From a virus, in the IMG/VR virus record IMGVR_UViG_3300023223_001973, positions 35,694-99,693 of that record: DNA of 64,000 nt. The stretch is one strand, 5' to 3'. Position numbers and translations under genes: made by a program. Below, piece after piece: positions 14,626 through 57,933 of this stretch (position 1 is its first letter; every line of letters begins with the position of its first letter). The notes beneath the pieces are model-generated. The model was given only the letters and a program-made list of their open reading frames with translations. It was not told where the DNA came from and searched no databases.

Positions 14626-16116
14626 ATGAAGAATAATAACGAAGCTATTGCGGCAGCAGTACAGAGTCGCATGGATGAGATGACGAACCGTCGTTCAGCT
14701 CTGGTTAATAGCTGGGCCAAGTACGTCAACGCCGTGGATACCTACGTCAAGGAGAAGCGGGGTAACTCCCTGTCGGACTGGGAGAAGATGAACATCGCCC
14801 AGTGTCTCGAAAACGCTCTTATTGAGGGTGGGCTTCGCCAGAATGCCCTGTTCGAGACGACCTTCGCCGACAACATCACCTTCCTGGGCATTCAGCTGCC
14901 CGTGATTGCTGCCTTGCTGCCGTCTCTCGTGCTGAACGAGATCGGCATGGTGCAGGCTCTGGATCGCCGGCAGGGTGCGGTGTTCTATCTGGACCTGCAG
15001 TATGGTACCACGAAGGGTAACGTGGCCTCCGGAACGGACATGATCAACGCCCAGACGGGCCATGATCGGACCACGCAGGGTCGGAGGTTTGCTACGAACC
15101 GAATCAATCAAGAAGCCCTCGGCACTGGTGACGGATCGACGGCCACCTTCGCCGGGACTCTGGACTTCAAGCCCGTGAGAGTAGATGGTGACGTCACAGT
15201 GCTTCCTGATGGCGCCATTTCGATCACTGATGGTCTTGAGACCTTCACGGACTCCACGGGGAGTGGGACGCTCACTGGCGACCTTGGTGGCACGGGTACC
15301 ATCACATACGCCACAGGCGTGTTCAGCGTCACCTTTAACACCGCTCCTGTGTTGGCTGCCGTTGTCTCCGCGTCCTACCGCTTCAACATGGATCGGGATA
15401 CGACCGGGATCGGTGAGGTCAACGTCTCGATGCGGTCCGAGAATATTACCGCTGAGGACTTCAAGCTGCGGGCAAACTTCTCCCTGGGTGCAGCCATTGA
15501 CCTGGAGAAGGCACATGGGCTGAAGTTGGAGTCCGAGCTGGTCAAGTTCCTGGGTGGAGAGATCAAGTTCGAGATTGACCACTTGGGTATCGACGTGATC
15601 AGGGAAGCTGCGGAAGGGGCCAATGCAGCCACGGCGGTGGGTACCTGGACCGCTACCCCGACCGATGGACAGGAATGGCTCTGGAAGAAGTACGAGTTCA
15701 ACGACCAGATCGAAAAGGGCTCGAACTTCATCTTCGCCAAGACGTTGCGCGGGATGGCGACCTTCATCCTATGCGGAAACAACGTGGCGCGGGTATGCAA
15801 GCAGCTGACCCCGCACTTCAAGGCAGCCCCGGGTCTGGACAAGCAGAAGCCCACGGGCCCGATGGTTATCGGCACACTCGACGGCCGCACCGTGGTTCAG
15901 GACCCCTTCCTCCCGATCAACCGGTACTACCTGGGATTCAAGGGTGACAGTTACCTGTTCTCCGGCTTCATATATGCCCCATACATTCCGCTGTTCGCAA
16001 CCCCCACCCTGGTAACCGCTGACACCCTTGCCCAGAAGGGCTTCTTCAGTGCTGCCGGCTTCAAGATGATTAATGAAGGTCTGTACAACTTCGGCGATAT
16101 CGCAGGCCTGCTCTAA
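14626..16116 (+). CDS. Major capsid protein, T4 gp23-like
   Basis: A 496-residue coat protein. Its position after the protease-scaffold, its length and segments such as FLGIQLPVIAALLPSLVLNE and VYGTTKGNV-type loops fit gp23-like HK97-fold capsids. Residues 65-67 are L-I-E followed by GG, a plausible protease site; T4 gp23 is cut after residue 65. Residues 165-251 form an inserted Ig-like domain (GTGDGST to SASY) that also occurs in the baseplate protein at 40.3 kb. Codons favour C- and G-ending forms more than the neighbours do, as expected for a very highly expressed gene. AAGGAG lies before the ATG, and a strong terminator follows. Confidence 0.9.
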   Translation: MKNNNEAIAAAVQSRMDEMTNRRSALVNSWAKYVNAVDTYVKEKRGNSLSDWEKMNIAQCLENALIEGGLRQNALFETTFADNITFLGIQLPVIAALLPSLVLNEIGMVQALDRRQGAVFYLDLQYGTTKGNVASGTDMINAQTGHDRTTQGRRFATNRINQEALGTGDGSTATFAGTLDFKPVRVDGDVTVLPDGAISITDGLETFTDSTGSGTLTGDLGGTGTITYATGVFSVTFNTAPVLAAVVSASYRFNMDRDTTGIGEVNVSMRSENITAEDFKLRANFSLGAAIDLEKAHGLKLESELVKFLGGEIKFEIDHLGIDVIREAAEGANAATAVGTWTATPTDGQEWLWKKYEFNDQIEKGSNFIFAKTLRGMATFILCGNNVARVCKQLTPHFKAAPGLDKQKPTGPMVIGTLDGRTVVQDPFLPINRYYLGFKGDSYLFSGFIYAPYIPLFATPTLVTADTLAQKGFFSAAGFKMINEGLYNFGDIAGLL

Positions 16117-16326: not shown

Positions 16327-16770
16327 ATGATCACTGAACGTATGGTTTGTTCTTCTAACATGAAGCTTGGTGCTAACAAGAAGGTCTATGACCTTAAGGC
16401 TCATGTTCCTCAGGAAGTTGAGTTTGCTGATAAGGCTGAGCTGGATGCTCTTAAGGCTGTAATACCCGGGTTTACGGTCGCTCCTATCGCTCCTGCTGGC
16501 CCTGGTGTTGAGAACTTGTCGGCTCCTGCCACTCCTCCTGCACCACCCCCGGTTCCTACAACTATTCCTCCTACTCCTCAGCCTCCTGAAGAGGTAGATG
16601 ATTCCAAGGACCCACGTCTTCCCAGTGACACCGGTGGCGAGGTTAAGCTGCTGACTGGGTTGAAGTCGATGAAGAAGGCTGAGCTGATCAAGCTCTGTAC
16701 AGATAAGGGGTTGGATTCCAAGGGAACTAAACCTGAACTGGTCGAGAGGCTCGAAGCTTTGCAGCTCTAA
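16327..16770 (+). CDS. SAP-domain protein
   Basis: A 147-residue protein with AAAGGAGG before its ATG. It has three parts: an N-terminal 45 residues, a Pro-rich linker (PPAPPPVPTTIPPTPQPP), and a C-terminal SAP-like helix-turn-helix at about 110-147 (SMKKAELIKLCTDKGL, then GTKPELVERL). SAP domains bind DNA in many proteins. The gene heads the unit after the capsid terminator, so the product may be a capsid-associated or DNA-binding virion protein. Confidence 0.75.
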   Translation: MITERMVCSSNMKLGANKKVYDLKAHVPQEVEFADKAELDALKAVIPGFTVAPIAPAGPGVENLSAPATPPAPPPVPTTIPPTPQPPEEVDDSKDPRLPSDTGGEVKLLTGLKSMKKAELIKLCTDKGLDSKGTKPELVERLEALQL

Positions 16771-28114: not shown

Positions 28115-28538
28115 AGATCTTCTCGAAAGACTGACTGAGCAGGAGGAGCCTGTACAAGAACATCTCCCCAAGGCTTGGGGTATTCTATACGCCAACCCCA
28201 ATCCTGATGACTCTCGCAAGCAGTGCCTTAACTGTATAATGTGGTCTAGGGACAACCGTTGCAGCATTCATGAGTCTGATGAGGAGACTACAGAGGATCA
28301 CACCTGTGGGTACCATGTATATGGTAATCCCATGGAGGAGAGGATGGTCCATGAGGGTATGGATGCTGTAACTCCAGACCTGTCTGGCCTTGAACTCATT
28401 CCTGGTGGTACCAGCTGCGACATCTGTGAGTACTATGTGGAGGACTCTTCAACATGCCGTGTGGCTGTTGGAGATGATGGCAAACACTTGCAGGTAGCCC
28501 CCAAGGGTTGTTGTGCACGATGGGATGCTAAGGAGTAG
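28107..28538 (+). CDS. Candidate head-cargo protein with two tandem four-cysteine modules
   Basis: ATG at 28107 overlaps the upstream gene by 8 bases. The leader MLKDLLERLTE ends in L-T-E at residue 11. Two modules follow: C-x2-C-x8-C-x14-C (CLNCIMWSRDNRC to TCGYHV) and C-x2-C-x9-C-x16-C (CDICEYYVEDSSTC to GCCARW). Repeated spacing with aromatic residues after the second Cys suggests zinc or an iron-sulfur cluster of HiPIP-like type. About 143 residues. It is the last gene of the leader-bearing run. Confidence 0.72.
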   Translation: MLKDLLERLTEQEEPVQEHLPKAWGILYANPNPDDSRKQCLNCIMWSRDNRCSIHESDEETTEDHTCGYHVYGNPMEERMVHEGMDAVTPDLSGLELIPGGTSCDICEYYVEDSSTCRVAVGDDGKHLQVAPKGCCARWDAKE

Positions 28539-28540
28539 TA

Positions 28541-29005
28541 GTGTCACGTCTTATCCCACAACAGACCATTGATACCCTTCGCCAGTACTCTACCATCGCG
28601 GTAGACTTGTATGGCATTGACTGCGATCTCTTCATTCCTAAGACTGAGCACCTGGAGATGCAGGAGGAGCTTGATATCTATGATGAGAAACCTGCAGGTG
28701 ATGATGGACTGAAGTATGACTACCACCAGACGACCGTCTATATTGATTGGGCACCCAATATCTATAGGCTTCGTGCCCTTGGCATCTTTGTTGAGGATCA
28801 GAAGCCTATTCTGGCCTGGTTCGACCCTCAGCTTATAGTCCCCAGGAAGTCATACTTCCGGATTAAGCTTGAGTTCCTTCCTAAGGATAGGTTCGCTACT
28901 AATGAGTTTGAGGTTGTAGAGAATGTTATTAAGGCATTGCATGATGCCAGTGTCGTCAATGCCTGGCTGATTGCCCCACGCCGCAAAGAAAAGACCAATC
29001 CGTAG
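28541..29005 (+). CDS. Conserved-looking virion protein, neck or tail region
   Basis: A 154-residue protein starting at GTG 28541 with AGGAG upstream. It has no leader motif, so the cargo run ends before it. It is beta-rich (AVDLYGIDCDLFIPK, SYFRIKLEFLP). Position before the sheath region suggests a head-tail joining protein. No family is recognised. Confidence 0.65.
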   Translation: MSRLIPQQTIDTLRQYSTIAVDLYGIDCDLFIPKTEHLEMQEELDIYDEKPAGDDGLKYDYHQTTVYIDWAPNIYRLRALGIFVEDQKPILAWFDPQLIVPRKSYFRIKLEFLPKDRFATNEFEVVENVIKALHDASVVNAWLIAPRRKEKTNP

Positions 29006-29006
29006 A

Positions 29007-29035
29007 TCACCAACCCAGACAGTCTAGACTGGTGA
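29007..29035. repeat. Inverted repeat with 12-bp palindrome
   Basis: TCACCA at 29007-29012 pairs with TGGTGA at 29030-29035, and CAGTCTAGACTG at 29020-29031 is a perfect palindrome. It lies in the 89-base gap before the nucleotidyltransferase gene. There is no T tract, so it is not a clear terminator. It could be an RNA processing or operator site. Confidence 0.4.
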
Positions 29036-29094
29036 ATTAGGTAAGGATGCATTCAGCTTCTGAGCCTATGTTCTCCTGATAAGGTGTCTGAACT

Positions 29095-30171
29095 GTGACC
29101 GGTCTGCTTGAAAAGCCTCTTCGTTATCATCAGCTTGATCCAGGCAATGTTGTGGCTTTGGATCGAACTTATGTTGTGATGAATGAGGTCGATGGGAGCA
29201 AGATTCTTGTGTCCGCATCAGGCCCTGTCTTGAGGCTAGCCCCAAACGGGTGTCTCTATCGCGGCTCTGAGGTGATTGATCTGGATGAGTCCGCGGTCAG
29301 TTTTCCTCGTCCTACGCTGTCTCCCCTAGTCTGGGACAAGATGGATGATGGCGTCTATGAGCTTAAGCCTGATGTTCGTGGTTCTATTATGAAGAGGCTT
29401 GAGGCCTATCCAGGCTTTAACCTAGTGGATGCCGCTGAGGAGATCCATATTGTAGGAAGTATCGGAACCAACCAGTATGATGATGACTCCGATATTGATG
29501 TCCACGTGGTACCCCGCCTTGATGCCCTTCCTGATAATATGTCTCCTGAAGACTGGGTTACTGATGTTAAGCGCTTTAACCGAGTGGGTTTAACCCATAT
29601 TGGAGACCATCCTATTGAGCTGTATCTTCAGCTTGATAAGAGTCAGGACTTCCTGTCAGATGCTGTCTACGATTTTGATGACAGTGTTTGGAGGGTAGGA
29701 CCTCTTCTTCAGCCTCTGGACTTTGATCCATTTGAGGCTTATGGAGAGGCATATGACTCTATCAAGGAACTGGCTAGGGATACTGATGTTGCTCTTGGTG
29801 AACTGAAGCGTGATGTCATCGATTACCAGGTTGTGCGTGCTGCTATCTTCGAACTCCCACCTGAATATCATTCTAAGCTGCGTGATCGTCTTCAACAGAA
29901 GCTTGATGAGGTAGAGGCGAGTATTGATGAACTCCTGAAGGACAAGAAGGAGTGGATCGAGATGCGTCGTAATGCTTCCAAGCCTCTTACCAAGTCGCAG
30001 GCTATCCAGGATGTGGAGCTGGTCAGGAATTGGAAGGATAAGAATGCAAGGTTTAAGTTCCTGGTTCGCTTCGGCTATGTTAAGCTCATTACTGAGCTTG
30101 AACGCATGATTGAGGACAAAGAGCTGGATGACAGTGAGATAGGTGCTATCCAGCATTTAGTGGGGGTGTAA
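29095..30171 (+). CDS. Nucleotidyltransferase-fold protein
   Basis: A 358-residue protein starting at GTG 29095 with AAGGTG upstream. Near residues 122-140 it has VGSIGTNQYDDDSDIDVHVV, the G-S-x(n)-D-x-D signature of the polymerase-beta-type nucleotidyltransferase superfamily. The C-terminal half is a long charged helix region (LQQKLDEVEASIDELLKDKK). The substrate is unknown: a tRNA, protein or small-molecule transferase, or a toxin-like enzyme, are all possible. It has no cargo-type leader. Confidence 0.75.
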   Translation: MTGLLEKPLRYHQLDPGNVVALDRTYVVMNEVDGSKILVSASGPVLRLAPNGCLYRGSEVIDLDESAVSFPRPTLSPLVWDKMDDGVYELKPDVRGSIMKRLEAYPGFNLVDAAEEIHIVGSIGTNQYDDDSDIDVHVVPRLDALPDNMSPEDWVTDVKRFNRVGLTHIGDHPIELYLQLDKSQDFLSDAVYDFDDSVWRVGPLLQPLDFDPFEAYGEAYDSIKELARDTDVALGELKRDVIDYQVVRAAIFELPPEYHSKLRDRLQQKLDEVEASIDELLKDKKEWIEMRRNASKPLTKSQAIQDVELVRNWKDKNARFKFLVRFGYVKLITELERMIEDKELDDSEIGAIQHLVGV

Positions 30172-30172
30172 C

Positions 30173-30451
30173 ATGGGTGTCAAGGTTACCAAGATGATCA
30201 ACACCAGCCGGCATACGTTGCCTATTATCTTGAAAGGAGGGGAAGCCGTGCAAGTTCCTCCCCGTGGTCAACTGGAGAATGTGGAAGTGGAAAACCTTGA
30301 GAAGAACGAGAAATACTTCCGAGTGCAGCGTGATCTGTCGGAAGTGGGACGGACTCCGCCTCCTGCTCCGTTACAGAACTTGACTGAGGTAGGCAGGAAA
30401 CCACCTCCGGGGGCTAAGCCTGCTCGGAAACGGCGCCGCTTAGACGGTTAG
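30173..30451 (+). CDS. Small Pro- and Arg-rich protein
   Basis: A 92-residue protein whose ATG follows the upstream stop with a GGGGGTG site. It has two near-copies of a short phrase (LSEVGRTPPPAP and LTEVGRKPPPGA) and a basic end (KPARKRRRL). It may be a minor virion protein. No family is recognised. Confidence 0.6.
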   Translation: MGVKVTKMINTSRHTLPIILKGGEAVQVPPRGQLENVEVENLEKNEKYFRVQRDLSEVGRTPPPAPLQNLTEVGRKPPPGAKPARKRRRLDG

Positions 30452-30458
30452 GAGAGGC

Positions 30459-31091
30459 ATGATCGGCCTTACAGATGTAGCAATGGGCCTGTCACTTCTT
30501 AACCGTTTTAAGGATGTAGTGCCGGGTCTGTCTATGGTTAATAGGGACATCGTCTTTGCACCAGAAGACGTTGCTCTACGTGTTCATGCTGAGAGAGTAG
30601 GGGAGGATAACCTTGAGTTCTTGAGCTACTGGCGTGAGGGGACTACGTTCAGCTGGAAGAGGAATCAGTCGGTAGCCGCTAACAAGGGGCTGTTCACTCA
30701 TGTGGAGGATGGAGTCTTCAAAGGATTGTTGGCAGTACCTGTAGACCTGCGTTATCGTGTAGTTTACTGGACCAACAAGAAACGCAGTGCCAATGACTTT
30801 TTCAAGCAATACCTGTTCTGGGTACATGATAATCCTGAGTTATCCTTTAAGATCTTTAAGCAGGAGATTGAGAACTGCCTGGACATGCACTTTGAGGACC
30901 CTACAGAACAGGTCACGGACTGGTTTAAGGACTCTCGCTACTATACAGTTCGTGCTGATATCATGATTGATGGTTACGTGGTGAAGGATACCAGAGACTT
31001 CCAGGTTACCAAAGTTATACTCACTGCTTTCTTAACAGGGGTAGGTGAGGATGTGCAGGCCTTTGTGAGAACGATAACCGAAGGACCCTAG
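30459..31091 (+). CDS. Candidate tail-completion or sheath-terminator protein
   Basis: A 210-residue protein with AGGAGAGG before its ATG, immediately upstream of the tail sheath gene. It is mixed alpha/beta (LRYRVVYWTNKKRSANDFFK, RYYTVRADIMIDGYVV). In T4-like phages the gene before the sheath cluster often encodes a neck or tail terminator (gp15-type). That is inferred from position only. Confidence 0.6.
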   Translation: MIGLTDVAMGLSLLNRFKDVVPGLSMVNRDIVFAPEDVALRVHAERVGEDNLEFLSYWREGTTFSWKRNQSVAANKGLFTHVEDGVFKGLLAVPVDLRYRVVYWTNKKRSANDFFKQYLFWVHDNPELSFKIFKQEIENCLDMHFEDPTEQVTDWFKDSRYYTVRADIMIDGYVVKDTRDFQVTKVILTAFLTGVGEDVQAFVRTITEGP

Positions 31092-31109
31092 TTTTAGGAG
31101 GTATGACCA

Positions 31110-32672
31110 ATGGGTTTCTACGTATCACCTGGCGTGTTTACAAGAGAGATTGACCTTAGTGACATTGTTCCTAATGTTGCTACGTCAATCATGGCTCTCG
31201 TCGGTGCGCCTAACAGAGGCAACATTGATGAGCCTGTCCTCATCACCAACCTGGAGCAGTTCTACCGGGAGTATGGTGAGCCGGTGGTAGGAAACTACTT
31301 TGGTTATGCAGGCCTTGGTTATCTGACTCATGGTCAGCAGCTCCAAGCTATGCGTGTGGTCAATGGTGCACTGGTTGGTGGTCTTGAGATCAAGGAGGCT
31401 GGCTCCTCTCAGGATAATGCTGCCTTTGTTGTTGGCGAGGCTGACCCCACGACTCATTCCTTCGGTCTGGATGGTCTTTTAGCTATCTTCGCCAAGGACC
31501 CTGGGGTCTGGAATAATGGCCTCAAGATTATCTTGGACAATATCGATACCACGGAGCATACCTTTGACATCTCGGTGTTTGAGGTCAATGTTGACAACGT
31601 GGATGTGCTGAAGGAGAAGTTTACGGGATGCTCCCGTCAGACCAAGTTGGATGGGTTTGGCATCCAGGCCTTTGTCGAGGAGCGGGTTAACGAGTTCAGC
31701 AATTATATCCGGGTGCTGGACAATACCGCCGAGGTTGACACCATCGATCCAAAGGAGCAGGCTACCGCACTGGCTATGGCTGGTGGTACCAACGGTGCTG
31801 CCGTAACGGACGGCATCGTGAACATAGGATGGGATCAGTTTGCCAACCCTGAAGTAATCAACATCAATCTGTTGGTAAGTGGTGTGGCTCCGACGGTGGC
31901 TATCTCTAACAAGATGATTGCCCTTGCTGAGTCCCGGCTGGATTCTATAGCCCTCCTGGATATACCACTTACTGATAATACTGTGACAGAGATGACGACT
32001 TACCGCAGTACCACCCTTAATGCAAATACCAGCTATGCTGCCCTGTACAGTCACTGGATCAAGATATTTGACCAGTGGAATGATCAGGTGGTCACTATTC
32101 CATCTACAGGCTTCGTGGCAGGGCAGTTTGCCTTCAATGACTTCATCAGGGACCCCTGGTTTGCGGCTGCTGGATTCAACAGAGGTCGCTTGAATGTCCA
32201 GGGTGTGAATGTGGTCTTCTCGGAGGGTGACCGTAACACGCTCTATCCTGTTCAGATCAATCCCATCCAGTCCTTTAAGGGTGAGGGTATTGTGATTTGG
32301 GGAACCAGGACTCTCCAGGTCAAGCAGTCTGCTCTCAGCCAGATCAGTATTCGACGGATGCTGATTACTATTGAGAAGTCTGTATCCACGGCTCTCAAGT
32401 TCTTCGTCTTCGAGCCTAACGATGATGCAACTCGCCTGCGGATTACCTCGATGGTTGAGGAGTTCTTAGAAGTGGTCTTGCAGCGTCGTGGTCTGGAGGA
32501 GTTCTCGGTGGTCTGTGATGAGACCAATAATACTCCTGCTGTGAGGGAGAGGGGTGAGCTGCTTGTTGATGTGTTCATCAAGCCTGTCTTCCCTGCAGAG
32601 TTCATTCAGCTCAGTATGATCATCACCCGTCTTGGTGCAAGCTTCGAAGAGACACTTGCTCTGGGAGCATAG
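31110..32672 (+). CDS. Contractile tail sheath protein
   Basis: A 520-residue protein with TTAGGAGG before its ATG. The start MGFYVSPGVFTREIDLS and the following ALVGAPNRGNIDEPVLITN are typical of myophage sheaths. The C-terminal domain (NDATRLRITSMVEEFLEVV, then GELLVDVFIKPVFPAEFIQL) matches the conserved sheath core that wraps the tube. The sheath contracts to drive the tube into the host. The tube gene follows. Confidence 0.93.
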   Translation: MGFYVSPGVFTREIDLSDIVPNVATSIMALVGAPNRGNIDEPVLITNLEQFYREYGEPVVGNYFGYAGLGYLTHGQQLQAMRVVNGALVGGLEIKEAGSSQDNAAFVVGEADPTTHSFGLDGLLAIFAKDPGVWNNGLKIILDNIDTTEHTFDISVFEVNVDNVDVLKEKFTGCSRQTKLDGFGIQAFVEERVNEFSNYIRVLDNTAEVDTIDPKEQATALAMAGGTNGAAVTDGIVNIGWDQFANPEVININLLVSGVAPTVAISNKMIALAESRLDSIALLDIPLTDNTVTEMTTYRSTTLNANTSYAALYSHWIKIFDQWNDQVVTIPSTGFVAGQFAFNDFIRDPWFAAAGFNRGRLNVQGVNVVFSEGDRNTLYPVQINPIQSFKGEGIVIWGTRTLQVKQSALSQISIRRMLITIEKSVSTALKFFVFEPNDDATRLRITSMVEEFLEVVLQRRGLEEFSVVCDETNNTPAVRERGELLVDVFIKPVFPAEFIQLSMIITRLGASFEETLALGA

Positions 32673-56367: not shown

Positions 56368-56667
56368 ATGGATATCACCAATATCTTTGGTGCTGCTGGT
56401 GGAGCAGCTATTCTGCTCACTGGTTTACTGGCTGCCTTACGTAAGGCTGGTGTTCCCACGAGGTTCATCCCTCTGATAGGTCTCACCCTGGGTGCAATCC
56501 TTGGTATCGTGGTATCTTCAACCGGATTGGTACCTGATCTGGCACTCTGGCAGGCTATTGTCTCTGGGGTTGCTGTTGCAGGAACCAGTGGTGGTGTCGT
56601 CTATGCTGTTCCGAAGGAACTGTTCAAGGAGTCCCCAAAAGTCCTACACCTTAAGAAGGAAGACTGA
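56368..56667 (+). CDS. Holin
   Basis: A 99-residue protein with TGGAGG before its ATG. Hydrophobic segments (AAGGAAILLTGLLAAL, FIPLIGLTLGAILGIVVSS and an AIVSGVAVAGTSGGVVYA stretch) suggest two or three membrane spans, with a charged C-terminus (KVLHLKKED). This fits a holin that makes inner-membrane holes at lysis. The next gene overlaps (TGATG). Confidence 0.75.
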   Translation: MDITNIFGAAGGAAILLTGLLAALRKAGVPTRFIPLIGLTLGAILGIVVSSTGLVPDLALWQAIVSGVAVAGTSGGVVYAVPKELFKESPKVLHLKKED

Positions 56668-57076: not shown

Positions 57077-57130
57077 TTGATCGCTACAGTTCCTTTTTGG
57101 CCCCTCCAAAAGAGGACTGGTGCTGATCCG

Positions 57131-57169
57131 AGCCCCGGGGGTTCTCTTCTCCCCTTGGGGCTTGTTTTA
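57131..57169 (+). terminator. Rho-independent terminator after the lysis cassette
   Basis: AGCCCC at 57131 pairs with GGGGCT near 57156-57161, with an inner GGGG/CCCC pairing, then TTGTTTTATT. It ends the late structural and lysis unit. Confidence 0.85.
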
Positions 57170-57187
57170 TTAGTATGGATTCTCATA

Positions 57188-57195: not shown

Positions 57196-57209
57196 ATCAG
57201 GTGATTATG

Positions 57210-57686
57210 ATGCTCGACAAGGTAGGAATTGGTGAAGCTATTACTTTTAATAGTGCTGCCCCCTGTGACACCTGCAAGGCTCCTGAAGAGGAGTCTACCG
57301 AGCACAAGTCACCTTTCCACTGTAAGGGGTGTGGTGCTCTCCACTTTCCTCTCCAATATACAGGTGACAAGGTTGCTATTTGGCCTATTGATCCACCTGA
57401 TATGGTTGGTGACATCTGGATACCCGAGACTGCCCGTGAACCTAAGTACCTGGGCATTGTCCTCAATGTGGGTCCTGGCTACTATGTCAATGTAGCTAAA
57501 CCTTACCAGACTCCTAAGTATAAGTTCCGTGCTCCTAGTACGATGCTGGAGCCTAATACCGTGGTTGTTTTTGATGAGACTGTTCCATTCAAGATGGAGG
57601 TACGTGGTCTTGATGGCAAGATGCATTACATCACGCTGATGGGTGCTATGGATGTCATTATGTTCTGGGAAGAGATTGATGCCTAA
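57210..57686 (+). CDS. GroES-like co-chaperonin with N-terminal zinc ribbon
   Basis: A protein of about 158 residues. Residues 50-158 follow the cpn10 plan: TGDKVAIWPIDPP, a mobile-loop-like MVGDIWIPETARE, YLGIVLNVGPG, then TVVVFDET and YITLMGAMDVIMF. Such proteins cap GroEL; T4 gp31 and RB49 CocO are phage examples that help fold the capsid protein. The N-terminus adds Cys 19, 22, 38 and 41, a zinc-ribbon pattern not typical of GroES. Starts at GTG 57201 or ATG 57207 are possible, but AGGTG at 57199-57203 favours ATG 57210. Confidence 0.7.
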   Translation: MLDKVGIGEAITFNSAAPCDTCKAPEEESTEHKSPFHCKGCGALHFPLQYTGDKVAIWPIDPPDMVGDIWIPETAREPKYLGIVLNVGPGYYVNVAKPYQTPKYKFRAPSTMLEPNTVVVFDETVPFKMEVRGLDGKMHYITLMGAMDVIMFWEEIDA

Positions 57687-57933
57687 CTTTCGAGAGATGA
57701 CTGCGGATGACCATGTGAAATATTATGCTGCCACGATAGCTGGTGGTGTGATGGCCAACTCTCGGTGGGATAACCCTACGGATAATATGCTACGTGAGCG
57801 TGTAGCAGATGCTATTGTGGATATGGCTTGGGAACTGCACAAGGCATTGAATCGTCGTGCTGGGGGTGAGAAGCCACAAGTGTCGGTTGACTCTGGCGAA
57901 CCTGACCATCTTGGTTGGGGAGACGCCCAATGA
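57679..57933 (+). CDS. Small helical protein of unknown function
   Basis: ATG at 57679 with GGGAAGAG upstream; it overlaps the upstream gene by 8 bases. About 84 residues (FREMTADDHVKYYAATIAGG, then ERVADAIVDMAWELHKALNR). It looks like a small helical protein. No family is recognised. Confidence 0.6.
   Translation: MPNFREMTADDHVKYYAATIAGGVMANSRWDNPTDNMLRERVADAIVDMAWELHKALNRRAGGEKPQVSVDSGEPDHLGWGDAQ

Follow-up and report, generated by a model that had tools for sequence, protein, structure and literature searches.

The co-chaperonin gene and its surroundings

The window, by which we mean the whole stretch of 64,000 nucleotides analysed here, comes from a virus record of 99,693 bases, which encodes a T4-type tail sheath, a baseplate wedge, a portal and a head maturation protease. 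It carries a gene for a phage co-chaperonin, referred to below as the lid protein, in which a four-cysteine ribbon precedes a domain of the Cpn10 (GroES) family. The features considered in this study are as follows:

14626-16116, plus strand: gene of the gp23-type major capsid protein, the candidate client (496 aa; Pfam Gp23, E 3.6e-39; PHROG major head protein, E 1.6e-36)
57129-57173, plus strand: intrinsic terminator (13-pair stem at 57129-57164, then UUUUAUU), which closes the lysis-like unit upstream
57199-57203, plus strand: Shine-Dalgarno-like sequence AGGTG, 6 nt 5' of the ATG at 57210 (from the sequence)
57210-57686, plus strand: ribbon-Cpn10 co-chaperonin gene (158 aa; assigned by profile-profile comparison, fold and orthologues)
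57264-57350, plus strand: four-Cys ribbon, residues 19-47 (knuckle 1, C19-C22; knuckle 2, hairpin PFHCKGCGALHFP at residues 35-47)
57351-57674, plus strand: Cpn10 (GroES-fold) domain, residues 48-155
57387-57452, plus strand: mobile-loop region, residues 60-81 (22 residues), with IWI (69-71) in the GroEL-binding position according to alignments
57480-57557, plus strand: roof-loop region of 26 residues (91-116), which exceeds that of every other Cpn10 in the comparison
57679-57933, plus strand: following gene, coding for 84 aa that matched no family; its start overlaps the end of the lid gene by 8 nt

The lid gene is a real gene. Its ORF is open from 57210 to 57686, with two adjacent ATG codons at 57207 and 57210. 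Reading of the sequence revealed no further in-frame ATG, GTG or TTG upstream of residue 65, which means that no later start could omit the ribbon. The possibility that the ribbon is an artefact of a wrongly assigned start was thus rejected, all the more since in two relatives that share it (G054 and G055, see below) good ribosome-binding sites are located 5' of the ribbon.

In this phage the lid gene follows lysis-like genes, among them a holin-like gene (56368-56667), and lies away from the packaging and capsid genes. An earlier note on this DNA, made from the sequence alone, had placed it at the start of a new transcription unit, behind a terminator and a candidate promoter. The terminator was borne out: its hairpin (57129-57164) has a predicted folding energy of -24.2 kcal/mol (z -2.69), equalled by 2 of 200 shuffled sequences, and it had been missed by a pattern scan because of its 10-nt loop. 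The promoter found no such confirmation, since a scan over 16 kb listed no sigma-70-type site on the plus strand between 57080 and 57210, and the total of 18 matches per 16 kb was that expected by chance (17.8); this leaves room for a promoter of a phage-specific type. Within this region the highest-scoring sigma-70-type site (10/12, including the TG) is on the minus strand at 57220-57191, where it spans the lid gene's start and faces the opposite way.

Relatives of the lid protein and its assignment to the Cpn10 family

Single-sequence searches with the lid protein retrieved nothing from named phages, viral contigs or bacterial genomes, and no PHROG. With phmmer a chloroplast Cpn23 chain was matched at E 0.009, and the score against the Pfam Cpn10 profile (PF00166) was 15.9 bits, i.e. 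under the cut-off of 21.1. Relatives were reached by way of the tail sheath, then of the relative P0002 (which retrieved nothing from bacterial genomes in a single-sequence search), the family alignment and the capsid. The tail-sheath step left 80 loci, of which 50 went into the record searches; two of the 50 records matched, one being G004 and the other G020, whose plain Cpn10 gave a weak match. Scanning with the helicase encoded downstream yielded no relatives. The relatives are encoded by G004, G051 (of which G052 is a near-copy), G053, G054 and G055; the six records of the family, the window's own among them, may all be fragments. Three relatives score above the Pfam cut-off (22.3, 23.0 and 81.2 bits), those from G051, G054 and G055.

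In profile-profile comparison with 58 viral Cpn10s, the five-member family alignment matched over the whole domain with a probability of 97.9% (E 5.3e-13, score 76), whereas 40 column-shuffled controls gave at most a probability of 4.3, an E of 0.0094 and a score of 20.5. The lid protein is a Cpn10: the evidence for this is weak when taken directly and strong when taken through the relatives. In a tree of 55 Cpn10 domains, the family's six members group together as a single clade (support 100/97).

Structure prediction pointed the same way. An AlphaFold model built from a 40-row alignment had a pLDDT of 81.8 and a pTM of 0.73; it leans on generic Cpn10 rows, since an earlier attempt with only four sequences gave a poor model (pLDDT 37.8), which was set aside. 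In a Foldseek search with the 40-row model, ranks 1-33 were all occupied by Cpn10, GroES or gp31 chains. Residues 47-155 of the model aligned with GroES at Z 10.6 (91 residues, rmsd 2.6), compared with Z 5.7 for the best chain of any other family, while two gp31 chains gave Z 8.2 and 7.3. Among these structural matches no ribbon fold was listed, which carries no weight either way. By sequence, gp31 was matched at E 0.68 with a broad profile and was unlisted with the family profile. The Cpn10 plan that the earlier note had recognised from residue 50 onwards therefore stands (from about residue 47-50), and the structure prediction which it proposed as a check returned a GroES barrel.

The four-cysteine ribbon

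The only cysteines of the lid protein (positions 19, 22, 38 and 41) form the pattern CxxC-x15-CxxC. Chance was rejected as their origin: a pattern of this type arose in 52 of 200,000 permutations of the lid residues, and the four-Cys set recurs at the same position in G054 and G055, phages whose capsids resemble that of the present one (identities of 54 and 59%). The corresponding sequences are CDTC...PFHCKGCGALHFP in the window, CPEC...PFYCTMCNALKFP in G054 and CLVC...PFRCKECGAIKFP in G055. The description of the protein as a co-chaperonin with an added zinc ribbon is supported, and the relatives that carry the ribbon strengthen it.

Across the six family members, all four cysteines are present in the window (G000), G054 and G055, and none of the four in G004, G053 and G051. 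Such joint gain or loss is as expected of one metal site, and the extension probably holds zinc. No match of the lid protein to Pfam Zn_ribbon_8 was found at E up to 10. Model confidence increases along the ribbon (mean pLDDT of 56, 70, 84 and 90 for residues 11-20, 21-30, 31-40 and 41-50, respectively), so that knuckle 1 is modelled with low confidence (about 56-70) and knuckle 2 with a pLDDT of 84-90.

The members without a ribbon keep the hairpin motif PFH...FP (PFHVRGKVRFP in G004 and G053, PFHDEQGNVHFP in G051), which indicates that the hairpin of knuckle 2 belongs to the whole family. The absence of the ribbon from the G004 relative follows from the choice of its start: a long mechanical ORF overlaps queD and was rejected, and the ATG after it was taken. 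The starts in G053 and G051 were likewise placed at the ATG giving the same start of the protein.

The ribbon may have been gained once, or gained and then lost; the retention of the hairpin in the ribbonless members favours loss. In a larger tree, ribbon members fall on both sides of the base of the family, which corresponds to an early gain and one loss, at a weak fork (99/70) with long branches flagged; in a smaller tree the six-member clade is recovered (100/99) with an unresolved base.

The idea that fusion to a ribbon is a general habit of viral Cpn10s was rejected, as a survey based on simple Cys patterns found such a fusion, among the best 80 of 91 loci, only in the query's own record. 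A match in L154 was discarded because the upstream stretch reached by the match is ridden with stop codons.

Gene neighbourhood and variants of the lid in related phages

In G004, G051 and G053 the lid gene is located between queD (confirmed by Pfam for G051, assigned by likeness for G004 and G053) and a gene of 220-251 aa; in these three records and in G055 it lies directly 5' of the same type of gene. The gene after that one in G004 is large-terminase-like (PHROG E 0.00096) and, from its position, the gene following the lid gene in the relatives would be the small terminase.

This fixed site beside packaging-like genes, together with the strong divergence from Cpn10, might reflect a Cpn10-fold protein that has departed from GroEL and serves as a head or packaging factor binding phage proteins or DNA; ribbons of this kind are common in DNA- and protein-binding proteins. 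Besides its ribbonless family member, G004 encodes a second, far more canonical Cpn10 (P0003, 67-68 bits), which could do the folding. We nevertheless regard such a departure as quite unlikely, because the mobile loop of the lid protein keeps its length and has a hydrophobic triplet (by alignment, IWI at 69-71) in the GroEL-binding place, and because the G055 lid continues into another Cpn10 domain in the same chain, which suggests a joint lid.

The G055 protein is a ribbon-Cpn10-Cpn10 tandem in one chain (L203:1201-1938, minus strand), comparable to plant Cpn20 with a ribbon added in front. Plant Cpn20 likewise has two Cpn10 domains per chain, and Cpn20/Cpn23 chains match twice; the window lid differs from both in being single-domain. 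By capsid, G055 is the nearest relative.

P0003 resembles the window lid in having a ribbon in frame before its Cpn10 domain, but it falls outside the family clade and its ribbon is a different one (CC...CxxC). A strong ribosome-binding site (AAGGAGGAG) precedes an internal ATG at the domain border (L111:4001-4474), and from this arrangement the gene may produce a long and a short, ribbon-free, form of the lid. The gene located just 5' of P0003 also codes for a double-CxxC protein.

GroEL was found in none of the four records tested, the window's record included; this is a weak absence, as is the lack of a second Cpn10, because the records may be fragments. The partner of the lid would then be the GroEL of the host. 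That the phage protein is a decoy, binding host GroEL to slow host folding, appears very improbable. A ribbon or a long roof could hinder the release of clients, though nothing direct speaks for this; the linkage to packaging-like genes in the relatives suggests a role in morphogenesis, and the phage lids gp31 and CocO are reported to be able to replace GroES (PMC3012670).

Several other observations were made in these records. The capsid gene of G004 (28440-31324, in L089) is seemingly split by about 1.4 kb with a 305-aa ORF, possibly a homing-endonuclease insert. In G051 a long ORF downstream of the lid gene, at the place expected for a large terminase (L094:11368-14649), carries an intein (PF14890, 86 bits) and, with it, an HNH domain. 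Two ORFs beside the lid gene of G054 (both within L204:1845-3226) were noted by eye only: one begins like a type IV prepilin, and the other looks SPFH/prohibitin-like.

The capsid protein and the comparison with gp31

The gp23-like capsid protein to which the earlier note had linked the lid is present in the window, as listed above; the extra Ig domain ascribed to it was not detected by Pfam at E up to 1. With its 496 aa it is similar in size to the T4 capsid protein, which depends on gp31. Directly 3' of the capsid gene, at 16327-16770, a SAP-domain protein is encoded (Pfam 38.3 bits).

The earlier note had proposed that the lid may be fitted to the capsid protein, in the role that gp31 plays for gp23; a gp31 in the strict sense would be a capsid-specialised lid which provides a larger or more open folding cage. 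It is reported that gp23 is folded efficiently by gp31 only, and not by GroES (PMC3012670), and that the mobile loop of gp31 is longer than that of GroES (22 vs 16 as counted in that paper) while roof loops are missing, features that are credited for the larger cage (PMC6318259). The T4-like genome with its Gp23 capsid, the fold match to gp31 and the packaging-like neighbours of the gene in the relatives are consistent with this proposal.

The loops are not. The mobile loop of the window lid is of ordinary length (22 residues, compared with 22-24 in 35 other viral Cpn10s counted alike), and its roof region is long (26 residues, against 15-17 in the same 35 proteins). The other family members have 16-18 residues in the roof and 23-31 in the mobile loop, and it is the ribbonless relatives and G055 (mobile loops of 27 and 31 residues) that a gp31-type lid would fit better. 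Since gp31 is also so poorly matched by sequence, a gp31 proper is in our opinion possible but rather unlikely.

A gp31-like role is another matter. It is made plausible by the Gp23 capsid, by the lack of a detected GroEL and by the position of the relatives' gene beside packaging-like genes. The analogy is thus plausible for the role but does not extend to the traits by which gp31 stands out: as the lid is without the loop adaptations of gp31, its action on the capsid would have to work differently.

Proposed function of the lid protein

Taken together, we consider it probable (about 70%) that the lid protein is a phage-encoded, ribbon-bearing GroEL lid of a T4-like myovirus, with the ribbon docking a client or partner protein. 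We infer that a ring of lid subunits would cap the host GroEL and assist the folding of large phage proteins; the foremost candidate client is the gp23-type capsid protein. In the model, the second ribbon knuckle would run straight into the first barrel strand of each subunit, and the ring would accordingly carry more than one ribbon (seven in the case of a GroES-like heptamer). Most likely these ribbons, presumably zinc-bound, would serve to dock a client or partner and also make the N-terminal edge of the ring more rigid; docking is the simplest role for them.

In summary, the window encodes a phage co-chaperonin whose N-terminal ribbon is conserved in some of its relatives. With GroES/Cpn10 (PF00166) the window lid shares homology over the whole domain, the barrel fold and a mobile loop with a hydrophobic triplet; it differs in (i) the N-terminal four-Cys ribbon, (ii) the 26-residue roof and (iii) a score under the Pfam cut-off. 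With T4 gp31 and RB49 CocO it has in common that it is a phage lid of a T4-like phage with a Gp23 capsid, with a fold similarity of Z 7.3-8.2. Its loops are opposite to those of gp31, as the mobile loop is not longer and a roof is present, and the passages on gp31 that were consulted mention no ribbon. Another GroES with an added metal-binding part is HspA of Helicobacter pylori; this part is C-terminal and linked to nickel, whereas that of the window lid is N-terminal and of the CxxC type.

Lids encoded by phages illustrate how the chamber of GroEL can be adapted to a single demanding client. In gp31 this is believed to depend on the length of the loop and on the open roof, in place of which the window lid has a ribbon and an extended roof. 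Having these and lacking the features of gp31, it constitutes a natural test of what a lid contributes beyond chamber volume.

Ribbon genes next to groES in jumbo phages

Ribbon and lid are also kept together in RaK2-like jumbo phages, where they are encoded by two genes. We examined 18 hand-picked viral groES loci, taken mostly from 33 and 60 matching records, with one (G020) from IMG/VR. A stand-alone zinc-ribbon gene was present directly 5' of groES in all ten RaK2-like loci (phages BF, GAP32, XbC2, CBB, RaK2, PBECO4, Munch, XaC1, Kaldavass and Hallingskeid; loci L103, L104, L105, L108, L191-L195 and L199), whereas in the other eight viral loci no ribbon gene was found within 500 nt of groES. 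The ribbon of phage BF (P0006) passes the Pfam Zn_ribbon_8 cut-off (38.7 bits vs 34.4) and resembles FmdB-like PHROGs, and the gene of PBECO4 is annotated as a zinc ribbon. Apart from the separate genes, these phages differ from the window in the Zn_ribbon_8/FmdB type of their ribbon and in a different Cpn10 branch. Two GroES-like genes in one phage have been reported for CBB (PMC5259590).

These gene pairs bear on a further reading, that of a redox-switched lid. The reduced ribbon would hold zinc, and oxidation would free the metal and expose a surface that binds clients, which are then passed to GroEL. By analogy, precedents could be Ruc (Rv0991c), presumably a Zn_ribbon_8 member, or Hsp33. 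This is a serious rival, since the four-Cys ribbon of Ruc is reported to bind one zinc and oxidation to turn the protein into a holdase, encoded near GroES/GroEL in some phyla (PMC7448276). The pairing in the jumbo phages and the Zn_ribbon_8 match of the BF protein are in line with it. According to the same report, however, Ruc needs a disordered tail for its activity (PMC7448276), while in the window lid the ribbon joins a folded barrel, with residues 1-20 of low confidence, and gives no Zn_ribbon_8 match; we therefore hold a redox switch to be unlikely, if not by a wide measure, and prefer a ribbon that docks a client or partner on the GroEL lid.

The coupling of a ribbon to a lid was observed in three forms: (i) as an obligate fusion (window, G054 and G055), (ii) as a fusion with an internal start (G004) and (iii) as a gene pair (RaK2-like jumbo phages). 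It is tempting, though speculative, to propose that phages repeatedly coupled a zinc ribbon to a GroEL lid, making a metal- or redox-gated device for client delivery. Among the matches listed for the open-licence literature we found no paper on a phage GroES or co-chaperonin with a zinc ribbon, and no description of metal- or redox-gated control of the lid for GroES. The jumbo-phage pairs offer culturable phages for a direct test of this link. The ribbon gene of Hallingskeid (L195:993-1193) is unannotated.
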